Of a stretch of 64,000 bases of DNA, positions 13,785 to 53,998 are shown piece after piece. The first letter of the stretch is position 1, and the number at the start of each line of letters is the position of its first letter. Under the pieces are notes generated by a model. That model was not told the DNA's origin and did not search any database. It saw only the letters and a program-made list of their open reading frames with translations. The translations under genes and the position numbers were made by a program. Origin of the DNA: Acidobacteriota bacterium. GTDB taxonomy: Bacteria > Acidobacteriota > Thermoanaerobaculia > Multivoradales > JAGPDF01. The stretch covers positions 79,333 through 143,332 of the forward strand of contig JACTMI010000008.1 in NCBI GenBank assembly GCA_014584695.1, written 5' to 3'.

Positions 13785-13810
13785 GCGGGTCGACGCCGGA
13801 GAGGAAAACC

Positions 13811-14533
13811 ATGACCTTCGATCTCTCGGGGCAAGTGGCGCTGGTGACCGGGGCGTCCGGGGCGCTCGGCGGCGTGCTGACGCGGCGTCTGGTGGCCGCC
13901 GGGGCGCGCGTCGCCGCGACCGGCCGCGACGGCGAGCGGCTGCTGGCCGCCCTCCTCGACGCCGGCCTCGAGCCGTCCGCACGGCTGACGGCGCACGCGG
14001 TCGACCTGGTGGACGCGGCCGCGGTCGAGGCGCTGGTCGCGGAGGTCGTCCGCCGCCATGGGCGGCTGGACCACCTGTTCAACGTCGCCGGGACCTTCGC
14101 GGCCGCCGACAGCGTCGAAGCCACCCCGGACGAGCTCTGGGCCCGGCTCTGGGACGCCAACTTCCGCGCCACCCTCCACGCCTGCCGGGCCGCGGCGCCG
14201 GTGATGAAGCGGCAGGGCGCCGGCACGATCGTCAACGTCGGCGCGCGCGCCGCGCTCGCGGGTGGCGCCGGCGTCGCCGCTTACAGCGTGTCGAAGACCG
14301 CCGTGATGCGGCTGACCGAGAGCCTGGCGGCCGAGGGCAAGCGGCACGGCGTGCGGGTCAATTGCGTCCTGCCGGGGACGCTCGACACCCCGGCCAACCA
14401 CGCCGCCATGCCGACCGCGAAGCCCGCCGGCTGGATCGAGCTCGACGCCCTGGTCGACGTTCTGCTCTTCCTCGCCTCCCCCGCCGCCCGCGCGCTCCAC
14501 GGCGCCGCCATCCCGGTCTTCGGCGCCGGCTAG
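13811..14533 (+). CDS. Short-chain dehydrogenase/reductase (SDR)
   Basis: An NAD(P)-dependent oxidoreductase of 240 residues, the standard classical SDR length. The cofactor motif TGASGALG follows the first strand (VALVTGASGALGGVLTRRL); the adenine-site region is HAVDLVD and the central NVAG is present. The catalytic YxxxK is in AAYSVSKTAV. The usual catalytic serine position reads NVGARAAL, where a serine is not obvious, so activity may be altered or the residue shifted. The C-terminal part (VNCVLPGTLDTPANHAAMP) fits an SDR acting on a small alcohol or a sugar. Ribosome site GAGAGGAA precedes the ATG. It begins 26 bases after the anti-sigma gene and may be in the same transcript. Confidence 0.88.
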   Translation: MTFDLSGQVALVTGASGALGGVLTRRLVAAGARVAATGRDGERLLAALLDAGLEPSARLTAHAVDLVDAAAVEALVAEVVRRHGRLDHLFNVAGTFAAADSVEATPDELWARLWDANFRATLHACRAAAPVMKRQGAGTIVNVGARAALAGGAGVAAYSVSKTAVMRLTESLAAEGKRHGVRVNCVLPGTLDTPANHAAMPTAKPAGWIELDALVDVLLFLASPAARALHGAAIPVFGAG

Positions 14534-14558
14534 CTCCCGCCACCCGACACCCCGCCCT

Positions 14559-14573
14559 TAGAATCGTCGCGCC
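14559..14573 (+). promoter_or_regulatory. -10 box directly before the dipeptide epimerase gene
   Basis: TAGAAT at 14559-14564, nine bases, then ATG at 14574. No Shine-Dalgarno sequence; the leader would be about two or three bases. Confidence 0.45.
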
Positions 14574-15584
14574 ATGACGACCTTCCGCCACCGGACGATC
14601 GAGCTCGCGCTGCGCACGCCGTTCCGGCTCTCGCGCGGCACTTCCGCCACCCGCCACAACGTGCTCTTCGAGCTCGAGCACGACGGTGCTCGCGGCCGCG
14701 GCGAGGCGGCGCCGATTCCGCGCTACGGCGAGAGCGCCGAGTCGGCGACGGCCGCCCTCGAGGCGATGGCCGCCGGCCTGGACGATCCGCGCGCTTACGC
14801 CGAGCTCGCCGCCGAGCGCGCCGTCCCCGGCCAGCGGGCGGCGCAGGCCGCGTTCGACGTCGCGCTCCACGACCTCGCCGCCCGCCGGCTCGGCGTGCCG
14901 GTCCGCGAGCTGCTCGGCATCGGCCGGCGCGATCTGCCGCCGACTTCGTGGACGATCGGCGTCGATCCGATCCCGGAAGCGCTGGAAAAGGTGGCGGCGG
15001 CGCGGCGGTTCGAGGTGCTCAAGGTCAAGATGGGGGTCGAGGGCGACCTCGAGCTGCTGCGGGCGATTCGTGGCGCCACGGGGCAGGCGATCCGGATCGA
15101 CGCCAACGAGGGTTGGACGCTCGAGGGCGCGCGGGAGCGGCTGCCGGAGCTCGCTCGGCTGGGGGTCGAGCTGGTCGAGCAGCCGCTGCCCGCGGGGCGG
15201 CTCGAACAGACCCGGGCGCTGCGCGCGGCGAGCCCGCTGCCGCTGGTCGCAGACGAGGATGTCCACGACGCGGCGGACGTGCCGAAGCTGGCCGGCGTCT
15301 ACGACGGCATCAACGTCAAGCTGGCCAAGTGCGGAGGGATCTCGGGGGCGCTGGCGCTGATCGCGACGGCGCGGGCGCACGGCATGAAGATCCTGCTCGG
15401 CTGCATGGTCGAGAGCTCGCTCGGGATCGCGGCGGCGTTGGCGGTGGCGCCGCTCGTGGACTGGATCGATCTCGACGGGAGCCTGCTGGTGTCGAACGAT
15501 CCGTTCTCCGGCCTGGAGCTCGACGGCGGGCGATTGCGGCTGCCGGAGGGTCCGGGTTTGGGGGTCGAGCCGGTGGCCAGTTGA
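14574..15584 (+). CDS. L-Ala-D/L-Glu (dipeptide) epimerase, enolase superfamily
   Basis: A cytoplasmic enzyme of 336 residues that interconverts L-Ala-D-Glu and L-Ala-L-Glu, a step of murein peptide recycling (YcjG/YkfB type). The muconate-lactonising fold is complete: general base KVK (K150, K152 in LKVKMG), metal ligands D176 (RIDANEGW), E202 (VEQPLP) and D227 (VADED), and the opposing lysine K249 (INVKLAKCGG). GCMVESS near the end is the dipeptide-epimerase specificity region. It has its own -10 box and is followed after 21 bases by lysA, itself overlapping a penicillin-binding-fold lipoprotein gene, so peptides, DAP and wall enzymes cluster here. Confidence 0.9.
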   Translation: MTTFRHRTIELALRTPFRLSRGTSATRHNVLFELEHDGARGRGEAAPIPRYGESAESATAALEAMAAGLDDPRAYAELAAERAVPGQRAAQAAFDVALHDLAARRLGVPVRELLGIGRRDLPPTSWTIGVDPIPEALEKVAAARRFEVLKVKMGVEGDLELLRAIRGATGQAIRIDANEGWTLEGARERLPELARLGVELVEQPLPAGRLEQTRALRAASPLPLVADEDVHDAADVPKLAGVYDGINVKLAKCGGISGALALIATARAHGMKILLGCMVESSLGIAAALAVAPLVDWIDLDGSLLVSNDPFSGLELDGGRLRLPEGPGLGVEPVAS

Positions 15585-15593
15585 GCCCCTCGA

Positions 15594-15605
15594 TATGATT
15601 CCTGG
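15594..15605 (+). promoter_or_regulatory. Leaderless-type -10 box before lysA
   Basis: TATGAT at 15594-15599, six bases, then ATG at 15606. No ribosome site. It begins inside the 21-base gap after the epimerase gene. Confidence 0.55.
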
Positions 15606-23445: not shown

Positions 23446-26400
23446 TCAGAACTGGAACTTCAGCGCCGCCTGGAAACGCCGCGGTGCGTAGAACGTCTGC
23501 ATCTGGCCGAAGGTGGCCGGGACGCGCCGGTTCTCCTGCGGGTTGTAACCCGTCTGGTTGTCGAAAATGTTGAACACGTCCACGCGGGCCTGGATGTTGA
23601 ACCGGTCGCCGATCGGGAAGTCCTGGGTGTAGTTGAGGTCGACCTGATAGTGGTCGTCGGTGCGCCGCGATCCCGCCGGCTCGCCGTAGCGGTTCGTGCT
23701 CGACGTGCTGGTCGAGCCGGTGGCGGTGAGCAGCGCCCGATAGACCTCGACGTCGGTCGCCTGCCAGGGCTGGCCCGACTGGTAGATCGCGTAGCCGCCG
23801 ACGCTGGCATTCCAGGGCAGCGCGTAATAGCCGAAGAGCTTGAGCTGGTGGCGGCGGTCGCCGGTCAAGTCGCCGTACTTGAAGTCCCAGAGCTGGCGGC
23901 CGGCGCCGTCGGCGATGTTCGACGACCCGATGAAGATGTTGCCGTCGTTGGCCAGGTTGGTGGTGCTGCTGTCCTGGTCGAAGTTGCCGTAATAGTGGCT
24001 CCAGACGTAGGAGCCACGGAAATAGGCCTGGCGGCCGCGCCACTCGGTCTCGACGCCCGCCTCCCAGTACTTGGTGAAGGAGTTGTCGAGCTCGGCGATG
24101 ACGTAGGAGGAGCCGCCGATCTCGCCGCGCACCTGACCGAGGTTGCCGATGTAGAGCTCGCGCGGGATGCCCGCCGGCGGGTTGTACCTGAGCCGGGAGT
24201 CGTTCTCGGTGTCTTCCCAGAAGTTGTAGCCGTAGCGATAGCGGGCGTGGGCGCGCGCCGACCAGCCGTTACCGAAGGCGCGCGAAGTGCCGATCAGGTA
24301 CTCGTCGACCGTGCGCGGATCGAGCCCCTCCTGAAAGAACTTGCCCGACGAGGAGGCTTCCGGGGTCGAGCCGATGAAGTTGCCGTTCTGGTCGAAGTAG
24401 GCGTTGACGATCACCGCCAGGTTGCGCGCCCAGGACGCCGCGCGCGGCAGCGAGCTCGCGGCCGGCATGTAACGAGCGAAGTTGGCGTAGACGGTGTTGG
24501 CGCCGTCGTAGGCCCAGATCGCGCCCAGCCGGGGCTGGATCATGTCGTCGAAGTCGAGCTCGTACATCTTGTACCTGCTGTTCTTGTCGAGCTCGAAGCC
24601 GGAGACGCGGCTGGAATTGGGCCGCAAGCCCTGGCCGTAGAGCTGATCGTTGCTGATCAGCAAGCCGGCGTTGAAGGTGAAGTTGCCGGAGCGGATGGTG
24701 TCGTTGATCTCGAAGTTCTGGGACTCGTACTCCGAGTGGATGACCGGCACCCGGCTGCCGTCCGGCAGCGTGATGCCCTGCTGCTGGACCTGGGCTTGGA
24801 AGAAGATCGGCTGGCCGGCGCAGGTGGAGTTCGCCGGGCAGTTGAGGCGCCCGCCGGGGACCGTGATCGCGCCCCAGCCGTTCGAGCTCCGGTCCAGGTC
24901 CTCCTCGTCGCGGAACCACTGATAGCCGATGTGGATCTCGTGGGTGACCTTCTCGCCGCGGAAGAAGTCGTAGCCGATCTGGTAGCTGGTGCGGTAGAAG
25001 TCCTGGTTGTTGATCTCGGCGCCGCCGCCGACGATGCCGCCACCCACCCGCACGCCGTTCTGCACGTAGCCATAGCGCTGGATGATCGAGGCGATGAAGT
25101 TGTTGTAGTTGGTCTGGTTGGCGATCGGCGCGGGCACGCTGAGGCGACCCATCCGGTCCAGGTTCGCGACATCGAGGCCGACGCTGCCGTTGAGCGGCGT
25201 CTGGAAGCCGAAGAGAGTGTCCGGACGCCCCAGCGTCTCGTTCGCGAAGTCGGTGAACTTGAAGGTGAAGAAGCTCTTGTCGTTGATCACCCAGGTGCCC
25301 TCGAAGATGCCGATGTCGAGGGTCGCCTCCTCGCCCAGGCTGGCCGTGCCGGAGGTCGTGCCGCTGCCGACGCTGGCGCCGAAGACCTCGCGCTCGGAGG
25401 CCCGGTAGCTGCCGTGCAGGAGGATCGAGCTGGTCGGCGCGAAGGTCAGCTTGCCGAAGATCTCGTCGCGCGTGCTGTCGTAGTCGGGGACCTCGCCGTA
25501 GAGGTTGGCTCGGTTCTCGCGCGCGACCGTCGGCCGGTAGTAGGAAGCGTAGAAGAAGAGCCGCTCGCGCACCAGCGGACCGCCGAGGCTCGCGACCAGC
25601 CAGTCCTTGTCCTCCTCGAACACCGACGCGCTGGCCGTGGTGCGATCGCTGGTCATGTCTTCCGTCTGAATCTGGTACGACACCGAGCCGGCGAACCTAT
25701 TGGTCCCCGAGCGGCTGATCGAGTTGATCGAGAAGCCGCCGGAGCGATTGAAGTCGGTGGCGTCGGCGCCGCCCTTGACCACGGAGATCTGATCGATGTC
25801 GTGGGAGGAGGGCTCGGCCGAAAGCGTACCGAACAGCGGCAGGTTCACGTTCACGCCGTCGAACTGGTAGACGTTGTCCTGGCCGCTGCCGCCGGCCGAC
25901 GGGCCGCGCACGACGTTCTCGGTGTACTGGACGCCCGGGATCAGCTTGACCAGATCGCGGTACTCCTGGCCGACCGGCATCTTGTCGATGACATCGGCCG
26001 TGACCGCGGCCTTGAGCTCGGCCGAGGAGGTGTCGACCAGGGTCGCCAGGCCGACCACCTGGATCTCCTCGCTCATCGCCTCCGGCGCCATCGTCACCGA
26101 GACGGCGGAGTTCTGCTGCAGCGCCACCTGGACGCTGCGCCGCTCCGACGCGAGACCGGAGAGGGTGAAGGTCAACTCGTAACTGCCGGGCGGCAGGAGC
26201 GGCAGGCGGAACTCGCCGGTGGCGCCCGTGACCACCGTGCGGGCCTGCGGCAGCACGCTCGAAGTCGCCTCGACGGTGACGCCCGGCATCGCGTCGCCGT
26301 CGGGAGAGGTCACTCGGCCGGAGATCGAACCGGTTTGCTGGGCGAGCGCCGGGACGGCGCCCAGGGCCAGCACGAATACCCACGCGAGCCACTTCCTCAT
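23446..26400 (-). CDS. TonB-dependent receptor with N-terminal carboxypeptidase-like domain
   Basis: A 984-residue outer-membrane receptor. Signal peptide MRKWLAWVFVLALGAVPALA is followed by a carboxypeptidase-regulatory-like beta-sandwich (about 22-110: GSISGRVTSPDGDAMPGVTV, GEFRLPLLPPGSYELTF), a plug domain (about 120-230, with VDTSSAELKAAVTADVIDKM) and a large barrel ending in AALKFQF with the C-terminal phenylalanine. This is the OmpA-related TonB receptor layout abundant in Acidobacteriota, used for uptake of peptides or glycans; the ligand is unknown. AGGAGAAGGGGAGAAAG is the ribosome site. It lies 118 bases downstream of murQ on the same strand, which hints at amino-sugar or muropeptide uptake but is not proof. 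Confidence 0.93.
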   Translation of the reverse strand: MRKWLAWVFVLALGAVPALAQQTGSISGRVTSPDGDAMPGVTVEATSSVLPQARTVVTGATGEFRLPLLPPGSYELTFTLSGLASERRSVQVALQQNSAVSVTMAPEAMSEEIQVVGLATLVDTSSAELKAAVTADVIDKMPVGQEYRDLVKLIPGVQYTENVVRGPSAGGSGQDNVYQFDGVNVNLPLFGTLSAEPSSHDIDQISVVKGGADATDFNRSGGFSINSISRSGTNRFAGSVSYQIQTEDMTSDRTTASASVFEEDKDWLVASLGGPLVRERLFFYASYYRPTVARENRANLYGEVPDYDSTRDEIFGKLTFAPTSSILLHGSYRASEREVFGASVGSGTTSGTASLGEEATLDIGIFEGTWVINDKSFFTFKFTDFANETLGRPDTLFGFQTPLNGSVGLDVANLDRMGRLSVPAPIANQTNYNNFIASIIQRYGYVQNGVRVGGGIVGGGAEINNQDFYRTSYQIGYDFFRGEKVTHEIHIGYQWFRDEEDLDRSSNGWGAITVPGGRLNCPANSTCAGQPIFFQAQVQQQGITLPDGSRVPVIHSEYESQNFEINDTIRSGNFTFNAGLLISNDQLYGQGLRPNSSRVSGFELDKNSRYKMYELDFDDMIQPRLGAIWAYDGANTVYANFARYMPAASSLPRAASWARNLAVIVNAYFDQNGNFIGSTPEASSSGKFFQEGLDPRTVDEYLIGTSRAFGNGWSARAHARYRYGYNFWEDTENDSRLRYNPPAGIPRELYIGNLGQVRGEIGGSSYVIAELDNSFTKYWEAGVETEWRGRQAYFRGSYVWSHYYGNFDQDSSTTNLANDGNIFIGSSNIADGAGRQLWDFKYGDLTGDRRHQLKLFGYYALPWNASVGGYAIYQSGQPWQATDVEVYRALLTATGSTSTSSTNRYGEPAGSRRTDDHYQVDLNYTQDFPIGDRFNIQARVDVFNIFDNQTGYNPQENRRVPATFGQMQTFYAPRRFQAALKFQF

Positions 26401-26518
26401 CTTTCTCCCCTTCTCCTGTAACGGCCTGGACGCCAAGTCGACGACCGGCATTGGATCGTGCTCCGGACTGTAACACCACCGTCGCCCGGAGGGCACCTGC
26501 CGCTGTGGCGCTCCGGGC

Positions 26519-27469
26519 TCAGTCAGAGGCCTCGCCCAGCGCCCGCCAGACCTGCCCGCGCGCCGCCGCCAGCCGGGTCCGCGCCTCGGCGGGCGAGAGT
26601 CCGAGCCGGCCCGCCACCAGGGCGATCTTGACCTCTCCGCCGCTCGCCTCGAGCCACCGCGCCGCGGTCTCGCGGTCCACTCCCCCGGCGGCGGCGACGA
26701 TGCGCAGCGCGCGGTCACGCAGCTTCGCCGAGCCGGGGCGCAGGTCCACCATCCAGTTGCGGTAGGCCTTGCCGAGGCGGACCATGGCGGCGGTGGTGAT
26801 CGCGTTGAGCGCGGCCTTGGTGGCGGAACCGGCCTTGAGGCGCGTCGAGCCGGTGAGAACCTCGGGACCGGTGGCGAGCGCGATCACCAGATCGGCCCGG
26901 TCCGCCACCGCGCCGGGGGCGGCGCAGGTCAGCAGCACCGTGCGCCCGCCGCGCGCGCGCGCGGCGCTCAGCGCGCCCGCGACGTAGGGGGTCACCGAGC
27001 TGGCGGAGACGGCGATCAAGAGATCTCCGCTGGAGAGCCCGGCCGCCGCTTCCACTCCATCCTCCACGCGGTCCTCCGCCCCTTCGCGAGCGTGGAAGAC
27101 CGCCTCGGGGCCGCCGGCGATCACGGCGCGCAGGCGCGCCGGATCGGTGCCGAACGTCGGCGGGCACTCGGCCGCCTCGAGCACCGCCAGGCGCCCGCTG
27201 GTGCCGGCGCCGGCGATCAGGACTTCGCCGCCGGCGGCGTAGGTCTCGGCCAGCCACTCGGCCGCGCGGGCGATCTCGCCGACCCGCTCGAGCGCCCGCT
27301 CGACGCCGGCGCGATCCTCCGCGAGCAGCAGCGCCACCGCTCGCTCGGTGGGCATCCGGTCGAGCCTCTCGCTCGCCGGATGGCGCGCCTCGGTGGCGAG
27401 TGACGACCACGCCGTCTCCTCCGCGTGGCCGAGTCCCGCTGGGTCTCTCCTCTCCCGGTCTCCGCTCAC
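26519..27469 (-). CDS. murQ: N-acetylmuramic acid 6-phosphate etherase
   Basis: A cytoplasmic SIS-fold lyase that cleaves the D-lactyl ether of MurNAc-6-phosphate to give GlcNAc-6-phosphate, the entry of muramic acid into amino-sugar metabolism. The 316 residues contain the family hallmarks: TEARHPASERLDRMPTERAV at the start, GAGTSGRLAVLEAAECPPTFG, AVSASSVTPYVAGAL and LKAGSATKAALNAITTAAMV, and a C-terminal UBA-like helical part. The GTG at 27469 is chosen because GGAGGAG lies 10 bases upstream and the protein then begins about 20 residues before the TEARxP motif, as in other MurQ proteins. It is divergent from the symporter gene and the amino-sugar operon. Confidence 0.95.
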   Translation of the reverse strand: MSGDRERRDPAGLGHAEETAWSSLATEARHPASERLDRMPTERAVALLLAEDRAGVERALERVGEIARAAEWLAETYAAGGEVLIAGAGTSGRLAVLEAAECPPTFGTDPARLRAVIAGGPEAVFHAREGAEDRVEDGVEAAAGLSSGDLLIAVSASSVTPYVAGALSAARARGGRTVLLTCAAPGAVADRADLVIALATGPEVLTGSTRLKAGSATKAALNAITTAAMVRLGKAYRNWMVDLRPGSAKLRDRALRIVAAAGGVDRETAARWLEASGGEVKIALVAGRLGLSPAEARTRLAAARGQVWRALGEASD

Positions 27470-27519
27470 CTGCCCGCCGCTCCTCCCCCGCGTCGTCGCC
27501 GCGCCGGGGTCCGATCTCG

Positions 27520-27574
27520 TAGGATCGGTCGCCCCGGCGCCGGCTGGATTCCGACGAAACGATTCGGAGAATAC
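27520..27574 (+). promoter_or_regulatory. Promoter and leader of the alanine/glycine symporter gene
   Basis: TAGGAT (27520-27525) could be the -10 box; a leader of about 43 bases with GGAG (27567-27570) precedes the ATG at 27575. Confidence 0.4.
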
Positions 27575-28897
27575 ATGCTCGAGGCCCTGACGCGCGGAGT
27601 CACGACGGTCAGCAACCTGGTCTGGGGACCCTGGACGATCGCGCTGCTGTTCGGCACCGGGATCTTCCTCACCCTCCGCTTCCGCTGCGTCCAGGTCACC
27701 CGCCTGGGCCGAGCGTTGAGGTCGCTGCGACCCGCCGCGGCGGAGGGTGCCGCCGGCGCGCTGACCCCGTTCCAGGCTTTCATGACCGGGCTCGCGGGCT
27801 CGGTCGGTACCGGCAACATCGCCGGCGTCGCCACCGCGATCGTCGCCGGCGGGCCCGGGGCGGTCTTCTGGATCTGGTGCTACGGCTTCTTCGCCACCGC
27901 CGTCAAGCTGGCCGAAGCGATGCTCGCCGTCCGTTTCCGGCGCCCCGACGCCGCCGGGCTCTCGGCGGGGCCGATGCACTACCTCGAGCAGGGTCTCGGG
28001 CAGCGCTGGCTCGGTCTGCTCTATGCCGCGATCGCCGGCGTCGCCGCGCTGACCACCACCCCCTTCACCCAGCCGAACTCGATCGCGGTGGCGTTCGAGA
28101 GCGAGCTCGGCGTCCCGCGCTGGGCCTGCGGCGTCGCGCTCGCGCTGCTCACCTGGATGGTGGTCATCGGCGGCGTCCGCTCGATCGGCCGGGCGGCGGA
28201 GCGGCTGGCACCGGCCATGGTCGTGCTCTACCTGGTCGGCGGCTTGGTGGTGATCGTCACCTTCGCCGGCCGCATCCCGGAGGTCCTGGCGACCATCCTC
28301 ACCGCGGCGTTCTCGACCGAGGCGGCGGCCGGCGGCGCGGCCGGCACCGGCATGATGCTGGCGGTGCGCTACGGCTTGGCGCGCGGCATCTACGCCAACG
28401 AGGCCGGCTACGGCACCGCCGCGGTCGCCTACGGCAGCGCCCGTTCGGCGCGGCCGGCGCAGCAGGGGCTCAACGCGATGGTCGAGGTCTACATCGTCTC
28501 CTTCGTCACCTCGAGCGTCAGCGCGCTCACCATCCTGCTGAGCGGCGCCGCGATCGGCGGCGCGACCAGCACCTCCCTGGTCGCCGCCGCCTTCGGCTCG
28601 GTGATCCCCTTCGGCGGCTACCTGGTGATGGTCTGCGCGCTGCTGTTCGGCTACACGACGCTGATCGGCTGGGGCTACTACGGCGAGCAGTTCCTCGCCT
28701 ATCTCGCCGGGCCGCGGATCATCGTCCCCTACCGTTGGCTCTATTGCGCCCTGGTCGTCCTCGGCGCCACCACGAGCGTCGAGCTGGTCTGGTCCTGGGG
28801 CGACCTCATGAACGGCCTGCAGATCTTCCCCAATCTCGTCGGCGTGCTCGGCCTGTCGGGCGTGGTCGCCAAGATGTTGCGCGACGACCCGCGCTGA
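27575..28897 (+). CDS. AGCS-family sodium:alanine/glycine symporter
   Basis: A 440-residue inner-membrane transporter with about eleven helices that takes up alanine or glycine with sodium. Family signatures are clear: GPWTIALLFGTGIFLTLRF at the start, the sodium-site region AGSVGTGNIAGVATAIVAGG, TTPFTQPNSIAVAF and YGLARGIYANEAGYGTA. AGCS carriers can also transport D-alanine, a murein breakdown product. Divergent from murQ and followed by the kinase gene 62 bases on, so it may form part of a wall-recycling locus. Confidence 0.93.
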   Translation: MLEALTRGVTTVSNLVWGPWTIALLFGTGIFLTLRFRCVQVTRLGRALRSLRPAAAEGAAGALTPFQAFMTGLAGSVGTGNIAGVATAIVAGGPGAVFWIWCYGFFATAVKLAEAMLAVRFRRPDAAGLSAGPMHYLEQGLGQRWLGLLYAAIAGVAALTTTPFTQPNSIAVAFESELGVPRWACGVALALLTWMVVIGGVRSIGRAAERLAPAMVVLYLVGGLVVIVTFAGRIPEVLATILTAAFSTEAAAGGAAGTGMMLAVRYGLARGIYANEAGYGTAAVAYGSARSARPAQQGLNAMVEVYIVSFVTSSVSALTILLSGAAIGGATSTSLVAAAFGSVIPFGGYLVMVCALLFGYTTLIGWGYYGEQFLAYLAGPRIIVPYRWLYCALVVLGATTSVELVWSWGDLMNGLQIFPNLVGVLGLSGVVAKMLRDDPR

Positions 28898-28924
28898 GCG
28901 CCCGAGGCGTCCGAAGCCGCGTGC

Positions 28925-28959
28925 TAGGCTTTCGCCTCGCTTCGACGGATGCCCCGCGC
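28925..28959 (+). promoter_or_regulatory. Possible -10 box of the amino-sugar operon
   Basis: TAGGCT at 28925-28930 lies about 29 bases before the TTG chosen as kinase start. If real it rules out the in-frame GTG at 28921. No strong ribosome site. Confidence 0.35.
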
Positions 28960-29898
28960 TTGCGTTACGTCATCGGAATCGACGCCGGAGGGACCAAGAC
29001 GGTCGGCCTGCTCGCCGACGAGTCCGGCGCCGTGCTGCGCGAGGCGCGCGGTGGCGGCGCCAACCTGCGCGCGCACGGCGAGCTGGGCGTCGAGAAGTCG
29101 CTCTTCCAGGTGATCGACGCGCTCGACTCACCGCGGCCGGTCGACGCGCTCTGCCTGGGCATCGCCGGCGTCGGGCGCGAAGCGGATCGGCTGGTGGTGC
29201 GCGACCTGCTGCGCCGGCTCGGCATCCGCAAGGCGGTGTCGATCGTCACCGACGCGCTCGTCGCGCTGGTGGCCGGCGCACCAGACGGCCACGGCATCGT
29301 GCTGGTCGCCGGCACCGGGTCGATCGCCTACGGCGTCGACCCTTCGGGCCGGAGCGCCCGCTCCGGCGGCTGGGGCTACCTGCTGGGCGACGAGGGGTCG
29401 GCGTTCTGGCTCGGGCACGCCGCCGTGCGCCTGGGGATCCGCGCCGCGGACGGCCGCGGTCCGGCGACGACGCTCTACGCCCGGATCCTCGCGCGGCTCG
29501 AGCTCGCCGAGCCGGCCGACCTGGTCGAGTGGTTCTACGACCAAGAGCTGTCGCGCACGCGCGTGGCGCAGCTGGCGCGGGTGGTCGAAGAGGCGGCCGC
29601 CGAGGGCGACGAATCGGCGCAGGACCTGCTCGACCAGGCCGCCCGCCACCTGACGCGCGCGGCGCGGGCCGTGGACCGGCAGCTCGAGTTCCCCGGCCCC
29701 TACCCGCTGGTGCTCTCCGGCGGTGCCTTCCGCGCCTGCCCCAGCCTCGCGCGCCGCATCGAGGCCCGTCTCGACGACCTGCCCGACGCGCGCGTGGTCC
29801 GGCTCGAAGTCGAGCCGGCCAACGGCGCCGTCCTGCTCGCGCTCCGGCTGCTCGCCGCGAGCGACGCCGCCGACCGGCCGGAGCCAGCTCCCTCGTGA
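28960..29898 (+). CDS. BadF/BadG-type ATPase, N-acetylglucosamine (amino-sugar) kinase
   Basis: A 312-residue sugar kinase of the ASKHA superfamily. Phosphate-1 motif YVIGIDAGGTKTVGLL is at the very N-terminus, phosphate-2 VLVAGTGSIAYG is in the middle with GGWGYLLGDEGSAFWLG, and the adenosine loop LVLSGGAF is near the end. This is the family of human NAGK and of bacterial GlcNAc/MurNAc kinases (MurK), which phosphorylate free amino sugars from cell-wall recycling. With MurQ nearby, phosphorylation of both GlcNAc and MurNAc would be consistent. The TTG start at 28960 is uncertain. Its stop overlaps the chbG start (GTGA). Confidence 0.88.
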   Translation: MRYVIGIDAGGTKTVGLLADESGAVLREARGGGANLRAHGELGVEKSLFQVIDALDSPRPVDALCLGIAGVGREADRLVVRDLLRRLGIRKAVSIVTDALVALVAGAPDGHGIVLVAGTGSIAYGVDPSGRSARSGGWGYLLGDEGSAFWLGHAAVRLGIRAADGRGPATTLYARILARLELAEPADLVEWFYDQELSRTRVAQLARVVEEAAAEGDESAQDLLDQAARHLTRAARAVDRQLEFPGPYPLVLSGGAFRACPSLARRIEARLDDLPDARVVRLEVEPANGAVLLALRLLAASDAADRPEPAPS

Positions 29899-30647
29899 GC
29901 CGCTGCCTGATCGTCAACGCCGACGACCTCGGCCGCAGCACCGGCATCAACGACGGCATCTTCGAGGCGCACCGGCGCGGGCTGGTGTCGAGCGCCACGC
30001 TGATGGTCGGTTTCGCCGCCGCCCGTGACGCCGCGGCTCGGCTCGCCGAATACCCGTCGCTCGGCGTCGGCCTCCACGTCACCTTGACCGGCGCCCGGCC
30101 GACGCTGCCGCCCGAGCGCGTCGCCAGCCTGGTCGACGCCGCCGGGCGGCTGCCGCGCCGGCCGGAGGCGATCGCCGGCTTCGACCCCGCCGAAGCGCGC
30201 GCCGAGATCGAGCATCAGCTGCGGCTCTTTTACGTGCTCACCGGCCGCGCACCGACCCATCTCGACAGCCATCACCACGCCCACGCCGTACCCGTGGTGC
30301 TCGACCAGATGGTCGCCGTGGCGCGCGCGGCGGCGCTGCCGGTCCGCAGCTCCACGCCGGCGATCGCCGAGCGGCTGCGCGCCGAGGGGATCCCGACGAC
30401 CGACCGCTTCGTCGATGCCTTCTACGGTGACGGCGCGACGCTCGAGCGGCTGCTCGAGATCCTGCGCGAGACCGGCGAGGGGACCACGGAGGTGATGTGC
30501 CACCCCGGGCGCGCCGACGACGAGCTGCGGCGGGAGAGCGCCTACGCCGAACCGCGGGAACGCGAGGTCGAGCTGCTCTGTCACCCGGCCGCGCTCGCGC
30601 TGCGCCGCGAGCTCGGTCTCGAGCTCACGCGCTTCGGAGCCCCGTGA
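29895..30647 (+). CDS. chbG: YdjC/ChbG-family carbohydrate deacetylase
   Basis: A 250-residue metal-dependent deacetylase. NADDLG (the metal/catalytic aspartates) is at residues 7-12, GLHVTLTG and DSHHHAHAVPVV supply histidine ligands, and EVMCHPG is near the end. ChbG of E. coli removes one acetyl group from chitobiose and chitobiose-6-phosphate. Here it lies between an amino-sugar kinase and a NagB homologue, where the GlcNAc-6-phosphate deacetylase NagA would be expected, so it may do that job. It overlaps both neighbours by 4 bases, indicating strict co-translation. Confidence 0.88.
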   Translation: MSRCLIVNADDLGRSTGINDGIFEAHRRGLVSSATLMVGFAAARDAAARLAEYPSLGVGLHVTLTGARPTLPPERVASLVDAAGRLPRRPEAIAGFDPAEARAEIEHQLRLFYVLTGRAPTHLDSHHHAHAVPVVLDQMVAVARAAALPVRSSTPAIAERLRAEGIPTTDRFVDAFYGDGATLERLLEILRETGEGTTEVMCHPGRADDELRRESAYAEPREREVELLCHPAALALRRELGLELTRFGAP

Positions 30648-31393
30648 AGGTCCGGACGGTCGCCGACGCCGCCGCCGCCGCGCGCGCGGCCGCCCGCCGG
30701 ATCGCTGCAGCAGCCGAGCTCCGGCCCGAGCTCGTCCTCGGCCTGCCGACCGGCCGGACCATGGTCCCGCTCTACGGCGAGCTCGCCCGCCGCCACGCCG
30801 CCGGCGAGCTCGCGCTCGGCCGCGCGCGCGCCTTCAACCTCGACGAGTTGCTGCTGCCGCGCGACCATCCGGCCAGCTTCCGCGCCTACATGGCGCGACA
30901 CGCCTGGGAGCGGATCGGACTCGACCGGGCGCGCTGCGAGATCCCGGACGCCGAGGCCGAAGCCGCGGCCGAATGCCGGCGCTACGAAGGCGCCCTCGCC
31001 GCCGCCGGCGGGCTCGACCTGGCGATCCTCGGCCTGGGGGCCGACGGCCATATCGCCTACAACCTCCCCGGGCCGCCCGAGTCGGTCACCCACGTCGTCA
31101 CCCTCCCCACCCCCCTCGCCGACCAGCTCCAGGTGCCAGCCGATTGGCGGCCCCTGCGCGCGATCACGCTCGGCCTCGGGGCCTTCCTGGGCGCCCGCCA
31201 GCTGCTGGTACTCGCCACCACGGCGGACAAGCTCGAAGCGGTCCGGGCGCTCCTCTCCGGCCGGCCCGACCCACGCTGGCCCTGCTCGCTGCTCGCCGGC
31301 CACGCCGCCCTCGAGCTCCTGCTGACGCCGGAGTCCACCCCCCCGCCCGGCGGAGATCCCGGGCAACCGGAACGGGAATCGGCTGGCACCTGA
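30644..31393 (+). CDS. NagB-family glucosamine-6-phosphate deaminase homologue, altered active site
   Basis: A 249-residue member of the NagB/6-phosphogluconolactonase fold. Substrate phosphate loop LGLPTGRTMVPLYGELARRH and the catalytic-base region FNLDELLLPRDHPASFRAYM match glucosamine-6-phosphate deaminases (SYR/SF Y-M helix). The catalytic stretch reads GLGADGHIAYNLPGPP, where NagB has DGHIAFNEP: Asp and His are kept, but the glutamate of the catalytic triad is replaced by leucine. It may still act on glucosamine-6-phosphate, or on another sugar phosphate. Position after a kinase and a deacetylase strongly suggests amino-sugar catabolism to fructose-6-phosphate. It overlaps both flanking genes. 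Confidence 0.85.
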   Translation: MKVRTVADAAAAARAAARRIAAAAELRPELVLGLPTGRTMVPLYGELARRHAAGELALGRARAFNLDELLLPRDHPASFRAYMARHAWERIGLDRARCEIPDAEAEAAAECRRYEGALAAAGGLDLAILGLGADGHIAYNLPGPPESVTHVVTLPTPLADQLQVPADWRPLRAITLGLGAFLGARQLLVLATTADKLEAVRALLSGRPDPRWPCSLLAGHAALELLLTPESTPPPGGDPGQPERESAGT

Positions 31394-32838
31394 TGAGCCT
31401 CTCGGCGCTCGACGGCGGGCTGCTCGCCGCTTACCTGCTCGCGGTCCTGGCGTGGGGACTCTGGATCGGTCGCGGCACCTCGACGGCGTCGGACTACATG
31501 CTCGGCGGGCGCCATCTGCCCTGGTGGGTGATCCTCTTCTCGATCGTCGCCACCGAGACCTCGACCGTCACTTTCCTCTCGATTCCCGGTTTCGCCTACG
31601 GCCGCGACCTGACCTGGCTGCAGATTCCGCTCGGGTTCCTGCTCGGCCGCTACCTGGTCGCCTGGCTGTTGCTGCCGCGCTACTTCGAGGGCAACCTGTT
31701 CACCGCCTACGAGGTCCTGCGCGAGCGCTTCGGCGGCGGCGCCCAGCGCGCGGCGTCGGTACTGTTCGTCGTCACGCGCAGCCTCGCCGACGGGCTCCGG
31801 CTCTTCCTCTCCGCGCTCGTCCTGCAGGAGATGACCGGCATCGCCCTGCCCTGGGCGGTGATCGCCCTCGGCGTCACGACCATCGTCTACACCTACGCCG
31901 GCGGCATGCGCGCGGTGCTGTGGACCGACCTCGTGCAGTTCGTGGTCTACATCGGCGGCGCCCTGCTGGCGCTCGGCCTGCTGCTCGACCGGCTGCCGGA
32001 CGGCTTCGCCGGCCTGCTGGCGGCCGGCGGCGAGGCCGGGAAGCTCCACGTCCTCGATCTGCGCCTCGACTGGGCCGAACCCTACGCGCTCTGGACCGGG
32101 CTCCTGGGCGGCGCCTTCGTCACCCTGGGCTCGCACGGGGTCGACCAGATGATGGTGCAGCGCTACCTCTGCGCCCCCTCCCTGCGCGACGCGCGGCGCG
32201 CCCTGGTGGTGAGCGGCTACGTCGTGGTCGCGCAGTTCGCGCTGTTTCTGCTGATCGGCGTCGGCCTGTTCCTGTTCTACCAGCTCCATCCGCCGGCGGT
32301 CCCCTTCGAGCGCACCGACCGCGTCTTCGCCCGCTTCATCCTGGACGAGCTGCCGGTGGGGGTGGTCGGGATCCTGCTCGGCGCCATCTTCGCCGCGGCG
32401 ATGTCGACGCTCTCTTCCTCGCTCAACTCGTGCGCCACGGCGGTCACGCGGGACCTCTACCTGCCGCTCGCCGGGGCGCGCGCCAACCCGGTGAAGGAGC
32501 TGCGGGTGACGCGCGCCATGACCGCGGTCTTCGGCGTCGTCCAGATCGCCGTCGGCATCGGCGGACTCTGGCTCGAGTCGACGGTGGTCGCGAGCGTGCT
32601 CGGAATCGCCGCGTTCACCACCGGCATCGTGCTCGGGATCTTCTTCCTCGGCCGCTTCGCCCCGCGCGTCGGCCAGCGCGCCGCGCTCGCCGGTCTGGTG
32701 ACCGGCTTCGCCGCCATGACCGCGATCTACTTCGCCACACCGCTCGCCTGGACCTGGTACGCGCTGGTCGGCTCCGCCATCACCTTCGCCTCCGGCTGGG
32801 CCGCCAGCCACCTCTGGCCGCGCGCGCGGCCGGCCTGA
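31393..32838 (+). CDS. Sodium:solute symporter (SSS family), probable amino-sugar transporter
   Basis: A 481-residue membrane carrier with about thirteen helices. Hallmarks are the N-terminal YMLGGRHLPWWVILFSIVAT, the sodium-site region ETSTVTFLSIPGFAYGRDLT and DQMMVQRYLCAPSLRDARRA, with LLGAIFAAAMSTLSSSLNS in the TM8-9 region that binds sodium. SSS carriers in similar operons take up N-acetylglucosamine, MurNAc, sialic acid or disaccharides. Its ATG overlaps the NagB-like stop by one base (TGATG), so the operon order is kinase, deacetylase, deaminase, carrier. Confidence 0.92.
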   Translation: MSLSALDGGLLAAYLLAVLAWGLWIGRGTSTASDYMLGGRHLPWWVILFSIVATETSTVTFLSIPGFAYGRDLTWLQIPLGFLLGRYLVAWLLLPRYFEGNLFTAYEVLRERFGGGAQRAASVLFVVTRSLADGLRLFLSALVLQEMTGIALPWAVIALGVTTIVYTYAGGMRAVLWTDLVQFVVYIGGALLALGLLLDRLPDGFAGLLAAGGEAGKLHVLDLRLDWAEPYALWTGLLGGAFVTLGSHGVDQMMVQRYLCAPSLRDARRALVVSGYVVVAQFALFLLIGVGLFLFYQLHPPAVPFERTDRVFARFILDELPVGVVGILLGAIFAAAMSTLSSSLNSCATAVTRDLYLPLAGARANPVKELRVTRAMTAVFGVVQIAVGIGGLWLESTVVASVLGIAAFTTGIVLGIFFLGRFAPRVGQRAALAGLVTGFAAMTAIYFATPLAWTWYALVGSAITFASGWAASHLWPRARPA

Positions 32839-46304: not shown

Positions 46305-49300
46305 CTATGGCGCCCGGCACGCATCGCCGTAGAGCAGCGCCGATCGGGTCTCGTGCCACCAAGCGTCGGCGCCTGCCATGCTGGACCCGGTGATCGATTC
46401 GTCGCCACGCCGACGGACCTCGAGGAGCACTTCCGGCGTCCCGGTCAGCCAGGTCAGGGCCTCACCTCCGCGCAGCCACTCGAACCGCGGTTGCCGCGAC
46501 AGCTCGCGCAGTAGCTCGATCCCCAGGCGGTAGCCGTCCGCGACGTCGGGATCCGTCACCTCGATCCGGAACCCCGCGCACTCGACATCGCGGTACTTGG
46601 GATCAGGCGCCTCCGGAGAGGCTCGCGGCGTGAATCGCGTCGGCGCGAGCCGGAAGCCGGGCACGGTGACCGCCACTTGCGCCGGGTCGAGCCAGGGAGC
46701 GCCGATGCGCAAGAACGGTGCTTCGGTGCCCCGCCCCTCCGAGACGTTCGTCGCCTCGAGCAACGCGATCCCGGGGTAGGCGAGCGCCGCCTCGGCGCTG
46801 CGCAGGTTCGGCGACGGCGCTACCCACCGCCGCCCCGTCGCCGGCCAGGTCATCTCCCGGCGCCAGCCCGCCATCGGGACCACCGTGAGCCGCGCCGGCC
46901 GCGCCCGCCGAGCGTTGGCGTAGCGCGCCATCTCGCCCATCGTCAGGCCGTGAACCAACGGCCCGGGGGCGCGACTGACCAGACTGAGTGGGACCTCCTC
47001 GGGCGGCGCCCGCCGAGGTCCGGCGACCCTCCTGCCCCCGAGCGGGTTGGGGCGGTCGAGCACGATCAACTCGATGTCCGCCTCCGCGGCCGCGTCGAGG
47101 CAGAGCAAGAGCGTGCTCGCGTAGGTGTAGAAGCGGACCCCGGCATCCTGCAGATCGAACACCAGCGCATCGAGGCCCGCCAGATCCTCCGCCGTCGGCT
47201 GCGGGTGACCTCCGTAGAGGCTCACCACCGGCAGTCCGCTCTCGCCGTCGATGCCGCTCGGGACACTCTCTCCCGCCGCCGCCAACCCGCGCAGCCCGTG
47301 TTCCGGCGAGAACAGCCGGACGAGATCGAGCCCCTGTTCGCGCAACACCGCGATCGCGTGGCGGCCGTCCGTGGTGACCGAGGCGGCATGGGCGACCAGA
47401 CCGAGCCGCTTGCCCGCGAGCGGCGCGGCATCTCCGGCCGCGATCCGATCGAGCCCGACCTGCACGGCGGCGGGGCCTCCGACTTCGATCTCTCGGTCCG
47501 GATCCGACAGAGCCCGGATCACGGCGTCCGCTAGCGCCGGTCGCACCGCCGCGATCTTCCGGTTCTCTCGCGTCGGGTGGACACGGTTCGTGAGCAGGAT
47601 GAGGAACAGGTCGCGCCCCGGGTCGATCCAGATCGACGTCCCGGTGAAGCCGGTGTGCCCGAACGAGTCGCCCGAGAAGAGCTCCCCGGCCGAGGATCCG
47701 GACGGCGACTTGGTATCCCAGCCGAGCGCCCGCGAGGAGCCCTCCGGGCTCCCCGCCGCCCGCGTGAACAGCTCGACCGTCTCTCGCCGCACGATCCGCT
47801 GGCCGCCGTAGGCCCCTTTCCAGAGCAGCATCTGCGCGAACCGCGCGAGGTCCCGCGCCGTTCCGAACAGTCCGGCGTGCGGCGCGACGCCGCCCAGCGC
47901 GAATGCGTTCTCGTCGTGGACCTCGCCGTGGACGACGCGTCCGCGCCAGGGATCGAATTCCGTCGGCGCGATGCGCGTCGCGAGCCGGGCCTCCGGCCGC
48001 CATCCCGTATCTCGCATGCCGAGCGGCTCGAACAGTCGCTCGCGCACCAACTCGTCGACGGGCCGGCCGGCGACGCGCTCGAGAACCTCCCCGAGCAGCA
48101 GGATGCCGAGGTCGCTGTACCTCATCTGCGCGCCCGGCTCCGAGACGAGCGGCATCGAATAGATGCGGTCCAGAAACGCCGCGCGGCCGGAGAGCTCGCG
48201 ATAGAGCGGCGCCCACCAGTCGATCCCCGAGCTGTGGGTCAGCAGGTGACGGACGGTGACGCGGTCCTTCCCGCTTCCAGCGAAGCGCGGGAGAAAGCTC
48301 GCCACGCGAGCGTCGAGATCGAGCCGCCCCTCGTCGACCAGCAACATCGCCGCGGTGGTCGTCGCAACGACCTTGGTCAGGCTCGCGAGATCGTAGATCG
48401 TGTCGGCCTCGACCTGGGGGGCATCCGGCGCATAGGTCTGCCGTCCGAAAGGCCGCAAGTGCGCGAGCCGGCCGTTCCTGCCGATCGCCACGACTCCGCC
48501 CGGGAAGGCGCCGTCGGCCACCGCCGCCGCGATCAGCCGGTCGACCTCGGCCAGCCCCTCCGGCCGGAAGCCCGCGGTTTCCGGCGAGGAGGGCTCCAAC
48601 TCGAGGCGGCGCGCCGGCCGCTCGATGCCATGTCCGAACGGCGCGACGCCCGGGATCGTGACCGGCAGCTTGCCGGCGATCGGATGCTCTCCGAACAGCG
48701 CCGCGACCGCCGCGCGCTGGCTCGACTCCTCCGCCCCGTAGGCGCACAGATAGACGGGCACGGAGGGGAACTGGGTGAGCAGATACGGGCTGCCGTACGA
48801 GACCACGATCACCGGCGTGCCGCCGGCGGCGAGCCGCTCGACCAGCGCCGCGTGCGTCGCGTCCATGTCGGCGCGCCCCTTCGACGAGGTCACGCGGACG
48901 AAGGCCGAGACGACGACGTGCGTGAAGCCGGGAGCGAGAGCGGCGATCTCGCCGGCGGTCACCTCGGAGATCGCCGGTCCGAGCCGCTTGGTCATCGACA
49001 CGGCGCCCCTGCGCGCCAGCTCGGCCTCCGGCAGCCCGACGATCGCCGCGTTGACCCAGTCGCTCGAGGCCACCAGGTGGAGGATCCGCAGCGGGTCCTC
49101 GATCCGCAGCGGCAGCGTCCGCCGGTCGTCGCGCACCAGCGTGATCGCCGCGCGCGCGATCTCGTCGGCGCGCCGCAGGTCGTCCGGGCGACCGATGTCC
49201 GAGCGGCGGGCCCGGAGCTCCCGCTCGCGCTCGGCGCGGCTCCGATGGAGCCCGAGGCGCGCCTTGGCGGCGAGGATCCGCGCCACCGACGCCTCGATCC

Positions 49301-50414
49301 GCTCGGGCGTGAGCAGCCCCTCCTCGACCGCGCGCAGCAGCGACCGCACCGCCACGCGGGGGTCGGCGGGCAGCAGGACGACGTCGGCCCCGGCCGCGAC
49401 GGCCTCGACCACCGCCTCGCCCATCCACACGCCGCCGACGCCGCGCATCTCCATCGCGTCGGTCACCACCAAGCCGTCGAAGCCGAGCTCGCCGCGCAGC
49501 AGGCCGGTCGAGATCGGGCGGGATAGCGTCGCCGGCCGGCCGCTCGGATCGAGCGCCGGCACGGCGAGGTGACCGACCATCACCGAGTCGACGCCGGCGG
49601 CGATCGCGGCGCGGAACGGTGCGAGCTCGACCCGATCGAGCCGCGCGCGGTCACCCGGAATCGTCGGCAGCTCGAGGTGGCTGTCGAGCGCGGTCTCGCC
49701 GTGGCCGGGGAAGTGCTTGGCGGAGGTCAGGATCCCCCCAGCTCGCGCCCCTTCGACGAAGGCGGCGACCAGCTCCGCGACCAGCTCGGGCCGTTCGCCG
49801 AACGAGCGCAGGTTGATGATTGGATTGGCGGGGTCGCTGTTGACGTCGGCGACCGGGGCGAAAGCCCAGTGGATCCCGGCCGCGCGCCCCTCGCGGGCCG
49901 TCAGCTCGCCTGCGAAGCGCGCCGCCGCGACGGACCGCGTCGCACCCAGCGCCATCGCGTCGGGCAGCGGCGTCGAACCCGACACCACCCGGAAGGAGAG
50001 GCTCCGCTCGAGATCGGAGGCCACCAGGAGCGGCACCGGTGCGGCATCCTCGAGCTCGGCGATCAGCCGCGGGATCGAATCGACCTCCGAGCGGAAGAGC
50101 ACGACGCCACCCACGCCGAGCTCGGAGACCTCGGCGGCGAGCGCCCGGCGCTCCGGAGTGGCGGGATGGTCAGGGCGCCCGTAGGCCCGCACCATCACCA
50201 TCTGCCCGACCCGGCCGGCGAGGTCGAGGCGGCGAAGCGTCGCTTCCGCCCAGGCTCGGCCGTCCGCATCGAGGCCGTCGAAGGCCAGGCGGAGGGAATC
50301 GGGTCCCGGCGCCTCGGGCGAGCTCCCGACACCGCCCGACCGGCAGGCCCAAGTGCCAGCCGCCAGCACCAGGACGCCGGCCGACAACAGACCCCTCCAA
50401 CGCCGGGCGCTCAC
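46305..50414 (-). CDS. Trifunctional murein-recycling lipoprotein: NagZ (GH3) - AmiE-type serine amidase - NamZ (DUF1343) fusion
   Basis: A 1369-residue exported protein, probably a lipoprotein (signal peptide ending AAGTWAC, Cys24). Part 1 (about 40-595) is a NagZ-type GH3 beta-N-acetylglucosaminidase: KHFPGHGETALDSH (234-246, holding the Asp/His dyad) and the nucleophile D319 in LVVTDAMEMRG, with a GH3 C-terminal domain. Part 2 (about 610-970) is a penicillin-binding-fold serine hydrolase like AmiE: S678xxK681 (DLASLTKV), Y766 (RYSDLG) and HTG (920-922). Part 3 (about 985-1369) is DUF1343/NamZ: LFSPEHG, VFDLQDAGVRFYTYAS, DRPNPLGG. In Bacillus these are three genes whose products strip GlcNAc, peptide and MurNAc from wall fragments. 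It overlaps the M14 peptidase gene by 4 bases. Confidence 0.92.
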   Translation of the reverse strand: MSARRWRGLLSAGVLVLAAGTWACRSGGVGSSPEAPGPDSLRLAFDGLDADGRAWAEATLRRLDLAGRVGQMVMVRAYGRPDHPATPERRALAAEVSELGVGGVVLFRSEVDSIPRLIAELEDAAPVPLLVASDLERSLSFRVVSGSTPLPDAMALGATRSVAAARFAGELTAREGRAAGIHWAFAPVADVNSDPANPIINLRSFGERPELVAELVAAFVEGARAGGILTSAKHFPGHGETALDSHLELPTIPGDRARLDRVELAPFRAAIAAGVDSVMVGHLAVPALDPSGRPATLSRPISTGLLRGELGFDGLVVTDAMEMRGVGGVWMGEAVVEAVAAGADVVLLPADPRVAVRSLLRAVEEGLLTPERIEASVARILAAKARLGLHRSRAERERELRARRSDIGRPDDLRRADEIARAAITLVRDDRRTLPLRIEDPLRILHLVASSDWVNAAIVGLPEAELARRGAVSMTKRLGPAISEVTAGEIAALAPGFTHVVVSAFVRVTSSKGRADMDATHAALVERLAAGGTPVIVVSYGSPYLLTQFPSVPVYLCAYGAEESSQRAAVAALFGEHPIAGKLPVTIPGVAPFGHGIERPARRLELEPSSPETAGFRPEGLAEVDRLIAAAVADGAFPGGVVAIGRNGRLAHLRPFGRQTYAPDAPQVEADTIYDLASLTKVVATTTAAMLLVDEGRLDLDARVASFLPRFAGSGKDRVTVRHLLTHSSGIDWWAPLYRELSGRAAFLDRIYSMPLVSEPGAQMRYSDLGILLLGEVLERVAGRPVDELVRERLFEPLGMRDTGWRPEARLATRIAPTEFDPWRGRVVHGEVHDENAFALGGVAPHAGLFGTARDLARFAQMLLWKGAYGGQRIVRRETVELFTRAAGSPEGSSRALGWDTKSPSGSSAGELFSGDSFGHTGFTGTSIWIDPGRDLFLILLTNRVHPTRENRKIAAVRPALADAVIRALSDPDREIEVGGPAAVQVGLDRIAAGDAAPLAGKRLGLVAHAASVTTDGRHAIAVLREQGLDLVRLFSPEHGLRGLAAAGESVPSGIDGESGLPVVSLYGGHPQPTAEDLAGLDALVFDLQDAGVRFYTYASTLLLCLDAAAEADIELIVLDRPNPLGGRRVAGPRRAPPEEVPLSLVSRAPGPLVHGLTMGEMARYANARRARPARLTVVPMAGWRREMTWPATGRRWVAPSPNLRSAEAALAYPGIALLEATNVSEGRGTEAPFLRIGAPWLDPAQVAVTVPGFRLAPTRFTPRASPEAPDPKYRDVECAGFRIEVTDPDVADGYRLGIELLRELSRQPRFEWLRGGEALTWLTGTPEVLLEVRRRGDESITGSSMAGADAWWHETRSALLYGDACRAP

Positions 50415-53960: not shown

Positions 53961-53998
53961 CAGGCAGCAGCGCGGCCGGCTGGCTGCCGACGCTGCGA

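Follow-up and report, generated by a model that had tools for sequence, protein, structure and literature searches.

A YdjC-family ChbG protein as the probable GlcNAc-6-phosphate deacetylase of a peptidoglycan-catabolism locus without NagA in an Acidobacteriota bacterium

Gene content of the locus

The window (the whole stretch of 64,000 nucleotides analysed here) comes from an Acidobacteriota bacterium whose genome is 97.84% complete in 48 contigs, and contains a six-gene cluster at 26519-32838. The murQ gene (MurNAc-6-phosphate etherase; 26519..27415) is on the minus strand. On the plus strand are an AgcS sodium:alanine-type symporter (27575..28897; TIGR00835 389 bits, PF01235), a MurK/NagK-like BadF/BadG sugar kinase (28960..29898; TTG start, PF01869 141 bits), a YdjC/ChbG-family deacetylase (29895..30647), a NagB homologue resembling GlcN-6-P deaminase (30644..31393) and an SSS sodium:solute symporter (31393..32838; PF00474 162 bits). 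The original prediction placed murQ next to the kinase, ChbG, NagB homologue and a symporter. Its genes and frames are as claimed, but murQ is divergently oriented, AgcS stands between murQ and the kinase, and there are two symporters. The 4-base overlaps (GTGA) that it described on both sides of chbG, with the kinase gene and with nagB, are borne out by the gene coordinates, and nagB overlaps the SSS gene by 1 base.

In profile searches, MurQ exceeds the cut-off of NF003915 (316.3 bits; cut-off 168) and that of NF009222, but not that of TIGR00274 (272.7 bits vs 302), and its closest PDB relatives are the MurNAc-6-P etherases 4s12 and 4lzj. For the kinase, the top PDB match is 8zo3, “N-acetylmuramic acid/N-acetylglucosamine kinase” (164 bits, residues 1-294). 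It scores 97.8 bits against NF046058 (cut-off 370), and its likeness to the MurNAc kinase chains 8ow9/8oqw, the former presumably the Tannerella enzyme, is distant (E 1.2e-7). The SSS symporter is a candidate MurNAc/GlcNAc importer, and AgcS could possibly carry alanine from murein peptides.

The NagB homologue is divergent and falls under the TIGR00502 cut-off (131.2 bits vs 236.9). Among the catalytic residues of NagB, which we take to be Asp72, Asp141, His143 and Glu148 (E. coli numbering), the first three are kept and Leu stands in the column of Glu148; all 14 aligned NagBs from ChbG-clade genomes have Leu or Met there. Identity as a 6-phosphogluconolactonase was rejected (60 bits vs 124), and the FNLDE...HP motif is NagB-like. 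The “complete route” to fructose-6-P that had been predicted depends on this divergent NagB homologue, and some sister operons have no NagB. From the Leu/Met at Glu148 and these absences, GlcN-6-P may also feed biosynthesis.

Other peptidoglycan genes were found in the window. A fused ORF on the minus strand (46305..50771), assigned from domains and PDB matches, combines a GH3 (NagZ-like) domain, a beta-lactamase fold (AmiE-like) and NamZ (PF00933 261.6, PF00144 256, PF07075 234.7 and PF20732 94.5 bits), with NamZ_N (234.7 bits) and NamZ_C (94.5 bits) both present. A lipobox-like stretch can be seen by eye ahead of the GH3 domain. NamZ and NagZ-like domains release monosaccharides. On the plus strand, an L-Ala-D/L-Glu epimerase-like protein of the enolase superfamily (14574..15584; MR_MLE domains) is 55% identical to an epimerase-like gene within the sister operon L037, and its PDB matches include 1jpd. 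The fusion and the epimerase-like gene therefore mark the window as a peptidoglycan-catabolism island. There is also an outer-membrane receptor-like ORF on the minus strand (23446..26718; CarboxypepD_reg and OMP_b-brl_4 domains), with its true start inside the ORF, and a similar gene adjoins murQ in L037.

The ChbG protein and its clade

ChbG matches PF04794 at 201.7 bits (cut-off 29.7) over positions 2-262 of the 266-position profile, and is the sole PF04794 (YdjC) match in the host genome. It lies below NF002559 (chitin disaccharide deacetylase, E. coli type; 193.7 bits, cut-off 227), and HpnK was rejected as its identity (126.9 bits, cut-off 232.6). The best structural matches of its AF2 model (pLDDT 96.4) are the EF3048 and ChbG folds, with a TM of 0.88-0.89 and about 33% identity to 7vi8.

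For comparison, 56 loci were collected by a scan with two sequence patterns, 24 of them from Acidobacteriota. Residues D10, D11, H61, H126 and H203 are invariant in 51 of 51 aligned sequences (alignment A2: the window and 50 of the 56 scan loci, omitting L212, L230, L237, L241, L243 and L246), and correspond to D10, D11, H61, H125 and H206 of kpChbG in the available text of PMC9402603. We also built a tree from 53 of the 56 scan loci (omitting L212, L230 and L246), the window, E. coli ChbG and 83 phylum rows. The phylum rows come from 84 loci, a selected part of the phylum-sample matches, after a length filter of 180 aa, and L027/L077/L210 and L025/L045 repeat one gene. The window ChbG groups with 25 other rows in a clade of its own (99), apart from E. 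coli ChbG, which clusters with Bacillus/Brevibacillus rows (98). Position 14 is an invariable Arg throughout the window clade, while chb-type enzymes have Tyr or Leu. Arg14 carries less weight as evidence since VNADDLGR, one of the two scan patterns, includes this residue; it nevertheless occurs in 13 of 13 rows of alignment A1, which was compiled by searching genomes with HMM and BLAST.

Recurrence of the kinase-ChbG pair and scarcity of NagA

Among the 24 Acidobacteriota loci of the pattern scan, the kinase is immediately upstream of chbG in 22, so the pairing is more than chance. NagB lies immediately downstream in 13 of the 24, and MurQ, NamZ or the epimerase is near the pair in 18. All six Chloroflexota sister-clade loci have GH3, kinase, MurQ or NamZ. 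Arrangements vary: chbG is directly preceded by murQ in two loci (L221 and L225), kinase and ChbG stand together with murQ on a separate contig in several genomes, and in one case (G221/L210) ChbG adjoins hpt, with neither kinase nor nagB as a neighbour.

In the recycling of amino sugars and peptidoglycan, NagA is regarded as the enzyme that deacetylates GlcNAc-6-P. The original prediction held that it is missing here, and the genome-wide search agrees: TIGR00221 matches nothing in the host beyond fragments scoring 22-30 bits, and no conventional nagA was found elsewhere in this 97.84%-complete genome. No nagA reaches the cut-off in any of the 72 genomes of the order. Using the scan loci (50 of 56, in 48 genomes; omitting L243, L245, L246, L247, L248 and L249), NagA over the curated cut-off was found in 0 of 29 ChbG-clade genomes vs 12 of 19 others, and a sub-cut-off NagA-like gene (190-221 bits) in 3 of the 29. 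This count is not independent of the order and phylum counts, because 12 of its 23 Acidobacteriota genomes, identified by contigs of equal length, are shared with them.

Within the order, murQ is present in 11 of 12 genomes with a close ChbG vs 8 of 60 without (Fisher p 2.6e-7, which ignores kinship). NagA is missing from nearly the entire order, including the 60 genomes without a close ChbG, and therefore its loss is not tied to ChbG there. The eight murQ-positive genomes without a close ChbG comprise G296, which carries a NagA-like gene (222 bits), four in which neither close ChbG nor NagA was seen (G152, G248, G249 and G284), and G272, G275 and G282, which may be incomplete. In the phylum sample, nagA is absent from 18 of 63 nagB-positive genomes, with the ChbG clade in only 3 of these 18, and both are absent in the other 15.

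Proposed route, alternative readings and known systems

From the above, ChbG probably serves as a GlcNAc-6-phosphate deacetylase replacing NagA within a peptidoglycan-catabolism system, and the earlier proposal of ChbG in NagA's place gains support: the context is one of murein genes, the pairing of ChbG with the kinase is conserved, the clade stands apart and retains every catalytic residue, and genomes that carry it rarely have NagA. The locus would form the cytoplasmic arm of peptidoglycan catabolism. Outside the cytoplasm, the GH3-AmiE-like-NamZ fusion would convert peptidoglycan fragments to GlcNAc and MurNAc, which would be imported by the SSS symporter and phosphorylated by the MurK-like kinase to GlcNAc-6-P and MurNAc-6-P. 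MurQ would turn MurNAc-6-P into GlcNAc-6-P and lactate, and ChbG would then strip the acetyl group from GlcNAc-6-P by zinc-dependent hydrolysis, doing the job of NagA with an unrelated fold. Asp10 would act as base, Asp11/His61/His126 as metal site and His203 as acid. The NagB homologue would convert GlcN-6-P to fructose-6-P; in sister operons without nagB, GlcN-6-P would enter cell-wall synthesis. Of this scheme, the gene content, its conservation, the clade, the predicted fold and the catalytic residues rest on observation, and the substrates, the direction and the localisation are inferred.

The repetition of this NagA-less arrangement with ChbG in related bacteria suggests that a textbook metabolic step has a new enzyme. 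With somewhat less confidence, though still on balance, we suggest that a previously unrecognised YdjC clade, spanning at least two Acidobacteriota classes and Chloroflexota, represents a novel type of GlcNAc-6-phosphate deacetylase that replaces NagA without being homologous to it and is reserved for peptidoglycan sugars. Its Arg14 would be a candidate contact of the 6-phosphate, and its partner would be a NagB homologue that lost Glu148. A literature search of titles and abstracts, with most subscription journals outside its coverage, found no report tying YdjC/ChbG to GlcNAc-6-P deacetylation. If the proposal is true, Acidobacteriota and Chloroflexota genomes without nagA gain a working murein-sugar route, and their “chitin disaccharide deacetylase” annotations need correction.

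It is unlikely that ChbG instead works on a disaccharide (chitobiose, chitobiose-6-P or GlcNAc-MurNAc), with the NagA step performed by another enzyme or by none. EF3048 and ChbG are the top structural matches, and in the available text of PMC9402603 the only characterised activity of close sequences is on diacetylchitobiose and its 6-phosphate; the statement there that ChbG also accepts diacetylchitobiose-6-phosphate, a 6-phosphorylated sugar, counts for the GlcNAc-6-P reading too. However, E. coli ChbG falls outside the clade, the window protein scores under the NF002559 cut-off, and no PTS or phospho-chitobiase gene was seen in the six-gene cluster, unlike the chb operon and unlike the Bacillus and Brevibacillus chbG loci, which adjoin PTS EIIC. 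NamZ and NagZ-like domains, moreover, would yield monosaccharides. A classical chb operon was rejected, as the cluster has neither PTS nor a ChbF-like gene.

Deacetylation of free GlcNAc (or MurNAc) by ChbG, followed by phosphorylation of the amino sugar, is improbable. Of all units the kinase-ChbG pair is indeed conserved best (22 of 24), and substrates vary among BadF-type kinases, but the best solved relative of this kinase is a MurNAc/GlcNAc kinase, and since the MurQ product is already 6-phosphorylated, the murQ branch would still need a GlcNAc-6-P deacetylase. Very improbable is that ChbG deacetylates MurNAc-6-P, leaving muramic acid-6-P to MurQ or another enzyme: murQ immediately precedes chbG in L221 and L225, but MurNAc-6-P is the defined substrate of MurQ, and kinase and ChbG stay paired in several genomes with murQ on another contig. 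The slightest chance falls to NagA being unneeded, with GlcNAc-6-P passing directly to cell-wall recycling or to an unrelated deacetylase and ChbG having another role; the 15 of 63 nagB-positive phylum-sample genomes and four murQ-positive order genomes with neither gene fit this, but it leaves unexplained the overlap of chbG with kinase and nagB and the pairing with murein-sugar genes in two phyla.

The preferred reading, ChbG in place of NagA, can be compared with known systems. NagA (amidohydrolase superfamily, TIGR00221) belongs to a family unrelated to ChbG, and the window protein is proposed to carry out the same reaction at the same position between MurQ and NagB. E. coli/Klebsiella ChbG shares with it the fold and all five catalytic/metal residues, but has Leu/Tyr in place of Arg14 and falls in a separate clade, and the E. 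coli gene lies in the PTS chb operon whereas that of the window lies in a murein-sugar operon. The murT-murK-murQ operon of Tannerella forsythia, as described in the available text of PMC5790795, has a sodium symporter (MurT, of the sodium symporter superfamily), a sugar kinase and MurQ for MurNAc, like the window; ChbG, present in the window, is not named in that text. In Bacillus subtilis, murQ-murR-murP-amiE-nagZ-ybbC(namZ) provides, in the available text of PMC5061867, the same extracellular enzymes and MurQ; ChbG is not named there, import is by PTS, and the genes are separate, whereas in the window the extracellular enzymes form one fused ORF.

The six-gene cluster and its missing NagA

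All six genes of the original prediction, with the overlaps described for them, were found at 26519-32838. AgcS (27575-28897), a BadF/BadG-type kinase (28960-29898), YdjC/ChbG (29895-30647), a NagB homologue (30644-31393) and an SSS symporter (31393-32838) follow one another on the plus strand, and murQ (26519-27415, minus strand) is divergent from these five. The closest solved structure to the kinase is the MurNAc/GlcNAc kinase 8zo3 (164 bits), those closest to MurQ are MurNAc-6-P etherases, and the ECPPTFG and EGAED stretches are retained in MurQ. As predicted from sequence, the cluster products match a route in which MurNAc/GlcNAc is taken up and phosphorylated, the ether bond is cleaved, and the sugar is deacetylated and then deaminated. 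Downstream of the operon, a large protein (33940-36906, plus strand) has two CxxCH motifs and matches the hydrazine synthase alpha middle domain (PF18582, 50.7 bits).

The original prediction noted that NagA is missing from the cluster, and a TIGR00221 profile search of the source genome returned only fragments of 22-30 bits. No NagA over the TIGR00221 cut-off was found in the 72 genomes of the order, whose single near-full match (G296, 222 bits) adjoins a different NagB type in a genome without a close ChbG. In the phylum sample, NagA is over the cut-off in 78 of 247 genomes. We compared NagA with membership of the clade of window-like ChbG proteins in 48 genomes, which between them account for 50 of the 56 loci that the ChbG scan gave. 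A NagA over the cut-off occurs in none of the 23 Acidobacteriota clade genomes, in none of the six genomes of the Chloroflexota sister clade, and in 12 of the 19 remaining genomes. A sub-cut-off NagA-like gene of 190-221 bits is present in three of the clade genomes (G307, G309 and G329); the scarcity of NagA in clade genomes gives a Fisher value of 7e-7 for the cut-off counts and 2.5e-4 with sub-cut-off matches counted, both uncorrected for kinship.

YdjC/ChbG as a candidate deacetylase

In a YdjC/ChbG tree of 138 rows (SH-aLRT support), the window ChbG falls inside a 26-row clade (99). A group of six Chloroflexota rows (99) is the neighbour of this clade, and the fork that joins the two has a support of 80. 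E. coli ChbG groups with Bacillus and Brevibacillus (98), apart from the window clade, which is also apart from the phylum's other YdjC rows. The predicted model of the window ChbG (pLDDT 96.4) matches EF3048 with a TM of 0.94, and ChbG with 0.88-0.89. All 51 aligned proteins retain the catalytic and metal residues of Klebsiella ChbG given in PMC9402603. Position 14 is near the acetate-holding residue reported there, written as L13; E. coli ChbG as aligned has Gly at 13 and Leu at 14. This position is Arg in all clade rows, Leu or Tyr in chb-type proteins and mostly Leu or Met in 81 other YdjC rows, and Arg14 might, as a guess, be a phosphate contact. ChbG reportedly accepts diacetylchitobiose-6-phosphate (PMC9402603), so a GlcNAc-6-P deacetylase would be a short functional step away. 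In the literature searched, whose coverage leaves out most subscription journals, we found no paper describing action of a YdjC protein on GlcNAc-6-P.

Among the 72 order genomes, 12 contain a close ChbG (at least 53% identity), eight a close NagB (at least 54%) and 19 murQ (at least 59%). MurQ occurs in 11 of the 12 close-ChbG genomes versus 8 of the 60 remaining ones, and close ChbG in seven of the eight close-NagB genomes. The scan of genome contigs gave 24 Acidobacteriota clade loci, including L208 from the order member G280. The kinase is directly upstream of ChbG in 22 of them and NagB directly downstream in 13; within these loci we found SSS (10), MurQ (8), NamZ (7) and epimerase (8), with at least one of the last three in 18 of 24. 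The exceptions to the kinase-ChbG pair are L195, where no kinase is seen and the contig begins about 500 bases upstream, and L210, where ChbG directly follows hpt, away from kinase and nagB. This ChbG gene (also L077, 9386-10144) belongs to G221, a genome without nagA and with three nagB homologues. Six loci (L194, L203, L204, L207, L208 and L217) are kinase-ChbG-SSS operons lacking nagB. In Chloroflexota, L225 has GH3, beta-lactamase-fold, AnmK, kinase, MurQ and ChbG genes in a row, and the others are kinase-MurQ-ChbG (L221), MurQ-ChbG (L220), kinase-ChbG-NamZ-beta-lactamase (L219) and GH3-ChbG (L218 and L222).

Counter-evidence and the NagB step

The main evidence against ChbG replacing NagA lies in three observations. 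Almost all genomes of the order lack NagA, whether or not they have a close ChbG. In the phylum sample, 15 of 63 nagB-positive genomes lack both clade ChbG and nagA (a genome counting as nagA-less if it had no match at E 1e-30 or better), and four murQ-positive order genomes (G152, G248, G249 and G284) show neither NagA nor close ChbG.

The final step to fructose-6-P is less secure than the deacetylation step, because the window NagB homologue is under the TIGR00502 cut-off, the column of E. coli NagB Glu148 is Leu or Met in 14 of 14 aligned NagBs from ChbG-clade genomes (including the window, L196, L197, L201 and L209), and the NagB of the sister genome G015 (L163) is away from its ChbG, as far as contigs reach. 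In NagB homologues adjoining a NagA-like gene, this column is Asp in six and Glu in two.

Other peptidoglycan genes and known systems

Peptidoglycan is the theme of the whole window. A second murein-peptide-like cluster (13543-17012, plus strand) consists of an L-Ala-D/L-Glu epimerase-like gene (14574-15584) and, after it, a gene of the Orn/DAP/Arg decarboxylase family (15606-17012, plus strand), with a Beta-lactamase2 domain beyond this pair in a different frame. In G015, an epimerase relative is located within the operon, between AgcS and kinase. The HGSNAT_cat (NagX-like) family, frequently near GlcNAc-use genes, is represented by a membrane protein at 4263-5414 (plus strand), and one ORF at 62361-63860 (minus strand) encodes a NAGPA phosphodiester-glycosidase domain and also weakly matches the peptidoglycan-binding SPOR domain.

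One uninterrupted ORF at 46305-50771 (minus strand), with a lipobox-like N-terminus, contains GH3 (NagZ-like), beta-lactamase-fold (AmiE-like) and NamZ_N/NamZ_C domains. Among the solved structures nearest to it are those of GH3 N-acetylglucosaminidases and B. subtilis YbbD/NagZ. From its domains, it could be a single-polypeptide peptidoglycan exo-degrader. A second NamZ lies outside the window in the source genome. Beside the fusion, 50411-57214 encodes an M14 carboxypeptidase, a second SSS symporter, an Amidohydro_3 (D-aminoacylase-like) protein and a beta-lactamase-fold protein, which are likely to serve murein-peptide and D-amino-acid use.

The ybbC gene of B. subtilis is now called namZ. 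The symporter-kinase-MurQ operon of Tannerella, as described in PMC5790795, is of the same kind as the window cluster. In B. subtilis, amiE, nagZ and ybbC are separate genes adjoining murQ (PMC5061867), whereas the GH3, AmiE-like and NamZ domains are joined in one ORF in the window.
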